Assembly: GCA_002721815.1 (NCBI GenBank)
Contig: PBLQ01000069.1
Span: 1-38,752 of the forward strand
Origin: Myxococcales bacterium
Lineage (GTDB): Bacteria > Myxococcota > UBA727 > GCA-2721815
Reading direction: 5' to 3'
DNA length: 38,752 nt
In this document: in pieces, positions 33,512 through 38,752 of the stretch
How the letters are laid out: every line of letters starts with the position of its first letter
Numbering within the stretch: the first letter of the stretch is position 1
The notes under the pieces: generated by a model
Told to the model about the DNA's origin: nothing
Database searches by the model: none
The model's input: the letters and a program-made list of their open reading frames with translations, nothing else
Position numbers and translations under genes: made by a program

Positions 33512-34606
33512 ATGCCCGGTTGGAAAATGAAACTTAGTTTTTCCCTCTTGTGTTTGTTTTTGGTGGCCTGTTCAGGACGTCCGGTCAACGAAAACGAAGT
33601 AGGGTGCGCGGCAGATGCGGATTGTCCCGGTGGCCAGATGGGTTTCGCCACGTGTGAGATGTCCTCGGGTCTCTGTCTTTGCTTGAGTGACAATGCCTGC
33701 GATGCGAACGAATTTTGTAACGCTGTGGGGTCTTGCCAGGGCCGTGCAGGCTGTGAGTCCAACGACGATTGTTCGCTGGGCGCCATCTGTAACAATCGAA
33801 ACGGGGAGTGTGTGGAGCTCAACGCACAAATCCAATGCGTGGAGGACAGCCATTGTCCATTCGGAAGTGTGTGCGAAAATTTCGCGTGCGCACAGTCCTG
33901 CCGGGTCAACGGTGATTGTCCGCCCGGGCGGCCATGCATGAATGGCGTATGCAGCGCCAGCACGGGTGCCTGCAACCTCGATAATGGAAACCATTACTGT
34001 GACTACGGACAGCTGTGCGATGGTAATTCCATGCAATGTGTGACCCACCCAGAGGCCAGTGTGCTTTGTACTCGCTGTGACCCCGCTGATTTTTTCGCAT
34101 GTACCAACGGCCAATGGTGTTTGGTGGATAACACCATTCCGCCGGACAGTTGCACCAGCGATTCACAGTGCTCCCAGTATCCCCATGCATCTTGCGTTAA
34201 ACGAGAGTGCTTTTCTGACTCAGACTGCAGTGGAGGCGGGACGTGCACCAGCTCTGGGCTGTTCGGTGGGGAGTGCTCTTCTGGTCACTGTGGGGGGTAT
34301 TTTTGTGGTGCTTCCTCGTGTGATGAAAACAACCCCTGTCCCAGAGGCTATGATTGCAGTCAGCTTCAGATTGTGTCCGGAGACCCTTGTAATACGGCCG
34401 GTAGCGAATGCACCGGTGGCCGTGAATGTAAATCGGGTGGTGAAAACAATAACGTAGGCTTTTGCTCCTGTATTTCGGATGATGATTGTTGGAGTTTGAA
34501 CTTCCCGGATGCCACATGCGTTAATCCCGGGCCAAACGGGGCTTGTATCTTTGGATCGACATGCGGTCCAGCGGATGGTTTGACCTGCGATGACGTGAGG
34601 GAGTAA
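33512..34606 (+). CDS. Cys-rich lipoprotein (paralogue 1)
   Basis: A 364-residue protein with a signal peptide ending at FLVACSG, Cys20 being the lipidation site. About 50 Cys are spread in repeats of the kind C-x5-DC-x-x-G-x-x-C, similar to EGF/EB-like modules, giving many disulfides. There is no membrane segment or sorting signal at the end; it closes with CGPADGLTCDDVRE. It starts directly at the stop of the VWA gene, so translation is coupled; ATG at 33512 or, with GGTTGGA, ATG at 33527. The next gene is a paralogue with a similar ending. Likely exposed on the outer membrane and possibly bound to the VWA protein; function unknown. Confidence 0.85.
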   Translation: MPGWKMKLSFSLLCLFLVACSGRPVNENEVGCAADADCPGGQMGFATCEMSSGLCLCLSDNACDANEFCNAVGSCQGRAGCESNDDCSLGAICNNRNGECVELNAQIQCVEDSHCPFGSVCENFACAQSCRVNGDCPPGRPCMNGVCSASTGACNLDNGNHYCDYGQLCDGNSMQCVTHPEASVLCTRCDPADFFACTNGQWCLVDNTIPPDSCTSDSQCSQYPHASCVKRECFSDSDCSGGGTCTSSGLFGGECSSGHCGGYFCGASSCDENNPCPRGYDCSQLQIVSGDPCNTAGSECTGGRECKSGGENNNVGFCSCISDDDCWSLNFPDATCVNPGPNGACIFGSTCGPADGLTCDDVRE

Positions 34607-35912: not shown

Positions 35913-37313
35913 TTACAGGGCGCTCTTAAAGACAATCAATAGGTTGATGGTGAGGCAGTAGGCGAACGGTGGAATTACGGTTTGTCCACCTCGGTCCCAC
36001 AGTAGGCCGGGAATTACGCCCATGAAAATCATGTATTGGCCAATCCAAAGGGTCATCCATACACCTTCAAGCCCAACGATGGTTGGGAAACTGAAGTGAT
36101 AAAGCCCAACGAGAAGACTGGTAATGACCACCCCCGCGAATCCGTGACCGGTTGCTCTTGAGAAACAATGATTGAGCAATCCCCAGAAGAAAATAGCGTA
36201 AGCCGCAGCATGGATAAATGCACCCAAAACGTTTAACGAGGTATTGCCCGTGGGGACAAAGTCGCTCGCCAGACCGAGAAAAATCCCCAAGACGATGGCC
36301 ACCGGTGTGGCCATGGGCGGTAAAGTGAGACCAATGTCATCGGCCATCTCTTGTGGGTTTTTTTCATAAATAAAATAATAAAAGATGAATGCTGCGCCGA
36401 TAAGGAGAAATCGACGAATAAGCCAAAACGCGTTGGTGATTTCATATTGTGGTTCTGTCGAGGCCATGCCCATGGGAATGGCAAGGACCCAAGTCAGTAA
36501 AATGACCAACAGACTGCCCACACCAATTTTTATGGCCTTCGAAATATCTTTATCGCCTCTGACGACGCTGGGGCGTGGGCCAGGCGTCGCTTTGCCAGGG
36601 GCATCCTTTTTCGGTGAAACCGTTTTACGAGAGAGTTGTTCTCGCAGGGCCATCACTCTAGGATCTTTTGCGTTGATTTGTTCTGCGCGTACCACTGCTC
36701 CCTTGGCTTGCTCTTTGCGGTTTACATGTAGAGATGCTCTTGCTGTGTACACCTGAAGGTCTAGGGAGGCTGGTGCATCTTCGGCGATTTTCATGAGTCC
36801 TGTAATTGATTCTTTTTGCACCTCAACAGAACCACTACAGAAAACACGCGCCGTATAAAGGGCTGCTTGTGAGTGGGTATCCTCTGGACTTAAAGACACC
36901 ATTCGCTCAGCCAGTGGCAGGGCTTCTTCATATTTTTCAGAATCGAGTAAAGTAGGGACTCTTTCGTCGAGAAACTTGGACTCAAGAATGTTTCGAGCTG
37001 CGATATCGGAAAGGTCAACGCCCATGCTCTGTGCTTGGTTTAATATAAATCGCTGCAAGGGCTGGTTGATGAAATCGTGTATTTCGTTGAGCCGGCCTGG
37101 AAATGAAAGCCGGTAAGGATGAGACTCAGGCAAAGTGGCAATGCACGCGAGAACCTCTTTTTTTAAACTTTGCAGCGACGCGTGAATCTCTGAAAGATCA
37201 TAGGTCGGTTGTAGCTGCAAAATCGTAAAAACACTGCTCGCTTTCAGTCGTCGATGGAGTGTTTCAATCTCTTGTTCGCTGCGCGGGGGACTGACCTGTG
37301 TTACTTCATCCAT
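35913..37313 (-). CDS. TPR-like/membrane protein with degenerate CPBP (Abi) domain
   Basis: A 466-residue protein in two parts. The first ~255 residues are soluble and helical, with TPR-like repeats (YEEALPLAERMVSLSPEDTHSQAALYTAR, RKEQAKGAVVRAEQINAKDPRVMALREQL). From about residue 265, eight or so hydrophobic segments form a CPBP-like domain. Normal CPBP proteases have EExxxRG, FxxxH and HxxxN motifs. Here motif 1 reads YAIFFWG (372-378), with both Glu and the Arg missing. Motif 2 is VGLYH with His406 kept, and motif 3 has Cys453 in place of His, with Asn457 kept. It is probably inactive as a glutamic protease. Its start overlaps the exosortase stop by eight bases (ATGGATGA), so the two are coupled. 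Confidence 0.75.
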   Translation of the reverse strand: MDEVTQVSPPRSEQEIETLHRRLKASSVFTILQLQPTYDLSEIHASLQSLKKEVLACIATLPESHPYRLSFPGRLNEIHDFINQPLQRFILNQAQSMGVDLSDIAARNILESKFLDERVPTLLDSEKYEEALPLAERMVSLSPEDTHSQAALYTARVFCSGSVEVQKESITGLMKIAEDAPASLDLQVYTARASLHVNRKEQAKGAVVRAEQINAKDPRVMALREQLSRKTVSPKKDAPGKATPGPRPSVVRGDKDISKAIKIGVGSLLVILLTWVLAIPMGMASTEPQYEITNAFWLIRRFLLIGAAFIFYYFIYEKNPQEMADDIGLTLPPMATPVAIVLGIFLGLASDFVPTGNTSLNVLGAFIHAAAYAIFFWGLLNHCFSRATGHGFAGVVITSLLVGLYHFSFPTIVGLEGVWMTLWIGQYMIFMGVIPGLLWDRGGQTVIPPFAYCLTINLLIVFKSAL

Positions 37314-38319
37314 TGGGAGCCCTCAATGGTGAGCGGTAGTGCGTCCCCAACCACAGGACAACGCCCATGCCCGTATAGGTCATGAACGCAATGAGCAGGC
37401 CGGTCGTATCGTGAAGAGTAACAAAATTAAATTCGGGAAAGTAGTGGCCCACCCAAGAGACGATAATGATTCTGAACCAGTTGAGCGACAAGGCGAGGAC
37501 CATCATGCAGATCCAAAGGCCGACCTGTTTGCGCTGGGGCGCGAAGGAATAAGTCAAAAACCAAGCCAGGGCTGAGGTCGATGCAATGACATTTAAGCCA
37601 ACACAAGCTTGGGTCACATGAATGGTCGTGGACAAACCGTGTATGGTGGTTCCGTCTGCCCAGGCAGGTGTTCCCAGCAATCGGAGTCCCCATGCGGCAG
37701 TATTGGCAGCAATCGCTTGCGATGCTTCATTCACCGGAAACCAAAATGGCTGGCTCGCGAAGCATACGAGGATGACCACCAGTCCGAACAGTAGTTTCTG
37801 TGGGCGTGAGGTGTCGAACTGAAGCAGCAGCGCTAAAACCGCTAGGCCGACCATGGGCGCAAAGGAGATGGGCAGGACAAAACCCAAAACCAGTGCGAAC
37901 AGCGTGAAGAAAACGCAGGGGGCAGCCGAGGGTTTTCGGCCGTTTGTTTTCAAACACAATCCGATGACCGGGACGGTGAACAAAAGGGCGTGAGTGCCCT
38001 CCAGCCAGCCCAACAAAAAACCACTGCAAACCAGCGAAAAGATGAGCATCGCTGGCAGGACTCTTCGGACGATATCTTTTTTTAACCACATGGAGAAAAG
38101 CACACCAAAACTCAGGAATAACGCACCGAAAGGGGCTGGTACCCCGCCAGAGTGTGAGCCTCCGCCCGGTCCGCTACCGGTGCCCGGCTCTGCTGCCCCC
38201 GGGACGCCCCATGCGCCCACGTCGGTTGCGAACAAGAGGAGCGCAGCACATCCCCACAAACACAAGACCGGGTTTAAAGGAGGGAATACTGGGATTGAAC
38301 TGTTGAGACGCGCCTTCAT
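37306..38319 (-). CDS. Exosortase/archaeosortase-family protein with N-terminal sorting-signal-like segment
   Basis: Exosortases are membrane cysteine transpeptidases that cut and attach proteins with PEP-CTERM-like tails. The ~337 residues contain the catalytic triad pattern: Cys239 in TQACVGLN, Arg283 in LNWFRI, His303 in FVTLHDTTG, embedded in about ten hydrophobic segments. Unusual is the N-terminus. A signal-like helix (18-36) is followed by a Gly-rich linker (38-59), then VPAPFGALFLSFGVLFSMWLKK (60-81): VPxP, a hydrophobic helix and a basic end, the layout of a PEP-CTERM sorting signal. The ATG at 38319 follows AAAGGA; an in-frame ATG at 38358 adds 13 residues. The CPBP-like gene overlaps its end. 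Confidence 0.85.
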   Translation of the reverse strand: MKARLNSSIPVFPPLNPVLCLWGCAALLLFATDVGAWGVPGAAEPGTGSGPGGGSHSGGVPAPFGALFLSFGVLFSMWLKKDIVRRVLPAMLIFSLVCSGFLLGWLEGTHALLFTVPVIGLCLKTNGRKPSAAPCVFFTLFALVLGFVLPISFAPMVGLAVLALLLQFDTSRPQKLLFGLVVILVCFASQPFWFPVNEASQAIAANTAAWGLRLLGTPAWADGTTIHGLSTTIHVTQACVGLNVIASTSALAWFLTYSFAPQRKQVGLWICMMVLALSLNWFRIIIVSWVGHYFPEFNFVTLHDTTGLLIAFMTYTGMGVVLWLGTHYRSPLRAPNG

Positions 38320-38493
38320 GCAGGAGTCCTTTGGTGGTGACCGGACCAGACTACTCATTGGTGGGTGGGGCGGTCAACTTTTGAATGATAGAACCGGTAG
38401 CCTCATTTTGACGTAGGGAGCCCTGCGACTGAAAGGCAGTTCCAAGGCGAAGAAAAGCGGCGTTTTGTCCGACCTGTAGGTGTAGGGTCGCAA

Positions 38494-38752
38494 TCAGGCC
38501 TTAGATTTGCGGGCGTAAAAAGTTAGGATACCCATGAGCGCATAAGTTCCAAAGGCAACGAACCATCCAAGGGTATCGTGAAACTGATTGAGATGAGCAC
38601 TCAGAGACAGGTGCCCGACGCCACTAATAAGGATGATGCGTCCCAGGTTCAGTCCGATTCCTACCCCCGTGAGCATCAAGAAAAGTCGGCCCTGCTTTTT
38701 GGGTTCGCCAAACATGACAGTCAGGAAAGCGCTCAGCGCAACGAGGTTGGCG
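38494..38752 (-). CDS. Second exosortase-family protein (C-terminal part, cut by window edge)
   Basis: Only the last ~86 residues lie in the window; the gene runs off the right end. The sequence ends with the exosortase pattern GIGLNLGRIILISGVGHLSL, then QFHDTLGWFVAFGTYALMGI, and a basic tail ARKSKA. Arg and His match the two downstream active-site positions, and the expected catalytic Cys would lie just outside the window. The frame is open to the edge without a start, so the internal ATG at 38715 is not the true start. It is upstream of the complete exosortase on the same strand, with a 174-base gap. Confidence 0.75.
   Translation of the reverse strand, partial: ANLVALSAFLTVMFGEPKKQGRLFLMLTGVGIGLNLGRIILISGVGHLSLSAHLNQFHDTLGWFVAFGTYALMGILTFYARKSKA

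Follow-up and report, generated by a model that had tools for sequence, protein, structure and literature searches.

Can an exosortase-type enzyme carry its own target? The question is raised by P0001, a 337-residue exosortase/archaeosortase-family protein encoded at 37306..38319 (-) of contig PBLQ01000069.1 from a Myxococcales bacterium (38,752 nucleotides; hereafter the window), whose N-terminus has the build of a sorting signal. Its translation reads MKARLNSSIPVFPPLNPVLCLWGCAALLLFATDVGA|WGVPGAAEPGTGSGPGGGSHSGG-VPAP-FGALFLSFGVLFSMWL-KK-DIVRR, with the enzyme core coming next. Residues 1-36 (38212..38319 (-)) form a candidate cleavable signal peptide with the hydrophobic core PVLCLWGCAALLLFAT (residues 17-32) and a predicted site at V-G-A|W; they are followed by a Gly-rich stretch (residues 37-59; 38143..38211 (-)), VPAP (residues 60-63; 38131..38142 (-)) and the hydrophobic helix FGALFLSFGVLFSMWL (residues 64-79) with KK at 80-81 (38077..38130 (-)). 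The start codon, an ATG at 38319, has AAGGA upstream at good spacing; a second ATG lies further upstream at 38358, and the frame is open there also. The core (residues 87-337; 37309..38061 (-)) holds Cys239, Asn280/Arg283 and His303, the Cys, Arg and His falling on conserved family positions in the alignment, and scores above the curated cut-offs of PF09721 (59.4 bits, cut-off 25.7) and TIGR04178 (43.8 bits, cut-off 23). P0001 belongs to the exosortase/archaeosortase family, and the original prediction, made from the letters alone, of such an enzyme preceded by a signal-peptide-like helix, a Gly-rich stretch, VPAP, a 16-residue helix and KK is borne out by the translation and by these two models. 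The alignment to Xrt families that it proposed placed P0001 in no named subfamily, all Xrt models scoring below their cut-offs; membership of XrtE (exosortase E/protease) was rejected, TIGR04162 giving no match, and a PDB sequence search returned no significant relative.

That the N-terminal module is a fused partner of the exosortase appears probable, because separate genes of the same build sit directly upstream of the same exosortase type in relatives. Our preferred reading, to which we give a probability of about one half, is that it is a fused dedicated target, with processing as the likeliest mode of action. In a comparison set of 195 genomes of Myxococcota, the phylum of the window (its own genome, G000, and 194 others), PF09721 is present in 37, and at most exosortase loci with a readable upstream flank a sorting-signal gene (motif, helix, basic end) lies directly upstream, encoding a larger PEP-type protein, a VPELD-type protein before XrtE, or a tiny protein. 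The enzymes at these stand-alone loci carry no similar module on their own N-termini. For several EpsI-fused exosortases (e.g. L030, L031, L035) no sorting-signal gene was listed by the scan, which did not resolve every locus. A profile of the window's exosortase type matched only G000 (two copies), G013, G015, G186, G187 and G191, with weak matches in G044, G126 and G081. In G186, G187 and G191 the gene adjacent to or overlapping the exosortase gene encodes a separate protein of 54-62 residues with a signal peptide, a Gly-rich stretch, a helix and a basic end: MNSTKLILGLAVFLAASAAYA-GGGGGGGGGGGAEP-helix-RKR in G186, ...LALA-GGGGGGGG...-helix-RK in G187, and ...QA-GLRGGPDG...VPWEG-helix-RKRR in G191. 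Separate genes of similar build also stand directly upstream of exosortases in G012 and G044, in G126 and at XrtE loci.

The fused form itself is confined, within the comparison set, to three genomes. A profile of P0001 and its two nearest relatives matched only G000, G013 and G015, the latter two from the same order as the window, and in all three the signal peptide, Gly-rich stretch, helix and basic residues precede the exosortase core. No separate copy of the small protein was seen near the fused genes. A scan of GTDB contigs with P0001 gave no match, the same scan with query A1 gave the G013 contig as its sole match, and a plasmid search found no relatives. We note that no stop codon closes the exosortase frame in G015, which runs on into a Cys-rich protein with EG repeats and a lipobox-like AAGC (L021:901-4518 (+)), reflecting either a fusion or an assembly error, and that the order mixes genomes of 0.3-1.8 Mb (G001-G008, one family) with genomes of 4.6-7.7 Mb.

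The partner gene of P0001 also differs between the two forms. P0002 (35913..37313 (-)), whose ATG overlaps the P0001 stop codon, encodes a TPR half and a CPBP-like membrane half with the catalytic E/E/R replaced, and is homologous to the TPR-CPBP gene beside the stand-alone system of G186 (E 6e-10 and 4e-9). Similar genes adjoin the fused exosortase genes of G015 and G013, lie about 4 kb from the exosortase in G187 and are found on a different contig in G191. G186, G187 and G191 retain an intact CPBP motif E-E-x-x-x-R, whereas P0002 and the proteins of G015 and G013 have lost it, the halves devoid of E/E/R being encoded at 35913-37313 (-) of the window, L018:876-3803 (-) in G013 and L021:2-904 (+) in G015. 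The alternation between fused and separate forms, and a CPBP partner whose state changes along with them, suggest that the small Gly-rich protein, the exosortase and the TPR-CPBP protein make up a three-part system; the association of the fused form with a degenerate CPBP half, at three loci versus three and with fused forms that may share one origin, is a lead and no more. As to the neighborhood of these genes, the G013 partner protein (L018:876-3803 (-)) opens with Pro/Ala-rich repeats that extend over a few hundred residues, and apolipoprotein N-acyltransferase-like genes are found beside or near the exosortase at L064:763-2163 (+) in G187, L065:2877-4250 (-) in G191 and downstream of position 5010 of L018 in G013.

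How far the module resembles known sorting signals depends on the model that is used. The order of P-x-P, helix and basic cluster is present in the window as VPAP-helix-KK, at residues 60-81 of 337 and not C-terminal as in PEP-CTERM sorting domains. The PEP-CTERM models (PF07589/TIGR02595) and other tail models gave no match to the module or its tail, so that the comparison proposed in the original prediction came out negative; this says little, because two of the closest three stand-alone counterparts escape the public models as well. The small proteins of G187 and G191 match no sorting-signal model and that of G186 reaches 15.5 against TIGR02595, just under the cut-off of 16, which those of G044 (21.3) and G126 (16.5) pass. 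We also scored the module with two profiles. One was built only from 22 tails of proteins whose genes immediately precede exosortase genes in the same phylum; the other was built from whole small proteins and scored against 390 controls, and it placed the N-terminus of P0001 within the top 2.6-4.4% and that of G013 also in the top few per cent. In a survey of 217 interhelical loops of 12-45 residues, from 82 membrane open reading frames of the window and related loci and run after the feature had been noticed, only that of P0001 combined at least 30% Gly with an AxA-like site and basic residues clustered behind the following helix; [VIA]PxP at the loop end occurred in two, P0001 included.

Several observations weigh against a fused, processed target. 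The tail-only profile is not discriminating, since 46 of 291 control helices score at least as high as the P0001 module; a module scoring no better than random helices, which the original prediction had named as evidence against itself, is thus nearly what this profile returned, as opposed to a place in the top 3-4% of 390 with the full-architecture profile. With the latter the rank of the G015 N-terminus hangs on composition correction: its score collapses when this is applied, and it comes out either first or close to the bottom. VPxP, whose conservation in homologues the original prediction proposed to look for, is absent from both G013 and G015, which read GDELLVAV and GDHLLVAV at the position of VPAP. 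The contigs of G013 and G015 are short, and a separate copy of the small protein may lie elsewhere in these genomes. Homology between the stand-alone and the fused modules cannot be proven at such short length and high Gly content. The tree joins fused and stand-alone exosortases with weak support (36/54), and a single clade of the three fused proteins was not rejected (p-AU 0.168); the fusion may have arisen once or several times. The catalytic loss in the CPBP partner at fused loci may be a sign that processing of the module has ceased. The AlphaFold2 model of P0001, with a pLDDT (predicted local distance difference test score) below 50 across residues 4-71, is unusable for the module and lends no support to docking; a helix is predicted at residues 63-78 of this low-confidence model. 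Because the motif is missing from both homologues with the fusion, VPxP read as a sorting signal carries less weight than the overall architecture, and it is not a conserved element. What stands of the proposed built-in substrate or pseudo-substrate is that the module resembles an incorporated version of a small protein that has its own gene, directly upstream of the same exosortase type, in G186, G187 and G191, and that it has the topology of a substrate tail; the PEP-CTERM models and the conservation of VPxP do not bear it out.

Three other explanations have to be set against a fused target. An ex-partner that permanently occupies or gates the active site, uncut except perhaps for its signal peptide, would account for the lack of VPxP in two of the three fused proteins and for the CPBP catalytic residues being lost at all three fused loci and kept at the three stand-alone ones, and gene fusion as a rule joins stable partners; the window, however, retains VPAP together with Cys, Arg and His, and an AxA-like site follows the first helix, and we consider such a pseudo-substrate or regulatory subunit, the foremost of the alternatives, possible but rather unlikely. 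It is distinctly improbable that the region consists of two ordinary extra transmembrane helices and a Gly-rich loop that resemble a sorting signal by chance. The silent PEP-CTERM models and the undiscriminating tail-only profile would fit this explanation, but it leaves unaccounted for the rare loop composition and the same-build genes directly upstream of the same exosortase type, none of which was seen beside the fused genes. An assembly or gene-calling artefact merging two adjacent genes is very improbable: the two genes are indeed adjacent or overlapping in relatives, and an internal ATG at residue 91 of P0001 could begin a shorter product, but the fusion lies in an open frame in three separate assemblies.

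Under the fused-target reading, a gene that is separate and directly upstream in relatives would have fused in frame with the exosortase gene, and the N-terminal ~86 residues would represent a dedicated target or target-derived partner, offered in cis to the active site of its own enzyme. Signal peptidase would take off residues 1-36; the Gly-rich peptide would face the periplasm, with VPAP sitting on the membrane surface, the presumed docking place of exosortase substrates. P0001 may act on the VPAP site either in cis or on a neighboring copy, and a Gly-rich peptide of about 25 residues would be released or transferred. Cleavage of the module is plausible, and self-cleavage and a regulatory mimic are both compatible with the sequence; that the module is actually cut by an exosortase is somewhat doubtful. 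More tentative is the proposal that the enzyme carries its sole substrate in cis and self-processes, giving one short Gly-rich peptide per enzyme molecule, the CPBP catalytic residues having been lost along with the fusion.

The arrangement has partial parallels among known systems. XrtJ and its tiny PExPT-CTERM target (TIGR04200) likewise pair a target of about 57 residues with one exosortase, but the XrtJ target is separate, whereas the window enzyme matches no XrtJ model and carries the module itself; the small protein of G044, encoded beside a weakly related exosortase, covers positions 4-57 of 57 of TIGR04200 at 23.5 bits, below the cut-off of 40. In the exosortase E/protease, VPEID-CTERM system (TIGR04162), an exosortase is tied to a CPBP protease and a small Gly/His-rich VPELD-type target gene lies upstream (G012 and others); in that system it is the protease that is joined to the exosortase, the target being encoded by itself, whereas the window has the putative target joined to the enzyme and a degenerate CPBP-like partner encoded separately. 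PEP-CTERM/EpsH systems share with P0001 the exosortase family, the catalytic residues and the order of P-x-P, helix and basic cluster, but the window module is N-terminal and internal. An internal sorting signal can be used, since archaeosortase ArtA of Haloferax volcanii cleaves HVO_0405, a protein of gene-fusion origin whose signal lies in the middle (PMC7157517); the fusion partner there, unlike that in P0001, is another domain and not the sorting enzyme. Rhombosortases and their dedicated targets tend to be encoded by neighboring genes (PMC3237569). As in a dedicated single-target exosortase system, the gene of the putative target lies beside that of the exosortase here, fused in the window and as adjacent genes in relatives. 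A literature search for exosortase self-processing found no paper. We know of no exosortase with a biochemically mapped cleavage site or products, although our search was not exhaustive. A fusion of target and enzyme would provide a one-polypeptide test of whether and where an exosortase cuts and, if our reading is true, the enzyme may process, or be restrained by, part of itself.

Further features of the window and its genome complete the picture. A second exosortase in tandem, whose sequence is 34% identical to that of P0001, is represented at 38494..38751 (-) by its 3' part; its N-terminus lies past the contig end, and the missing half was searched for on other contigs and not found. A PF07589 search of the window's own genome for other targets gave nothing over the cut-off, other tail types not having been searched; several of the sub-threshold matches are Cys-containing tails resembling MYXO-CTERM. 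Long proteins encoded at L004, L006, L008 and L010 of this genome end in a Cys-containing motif, a helix and an Arg cluster, MYXO-CTERM-like in appearance. Lastly, the protein encoded at 33512-34606 (+) of the window has a sub-threshold match to DUF7107 (21.6 vs 24.6 bits).
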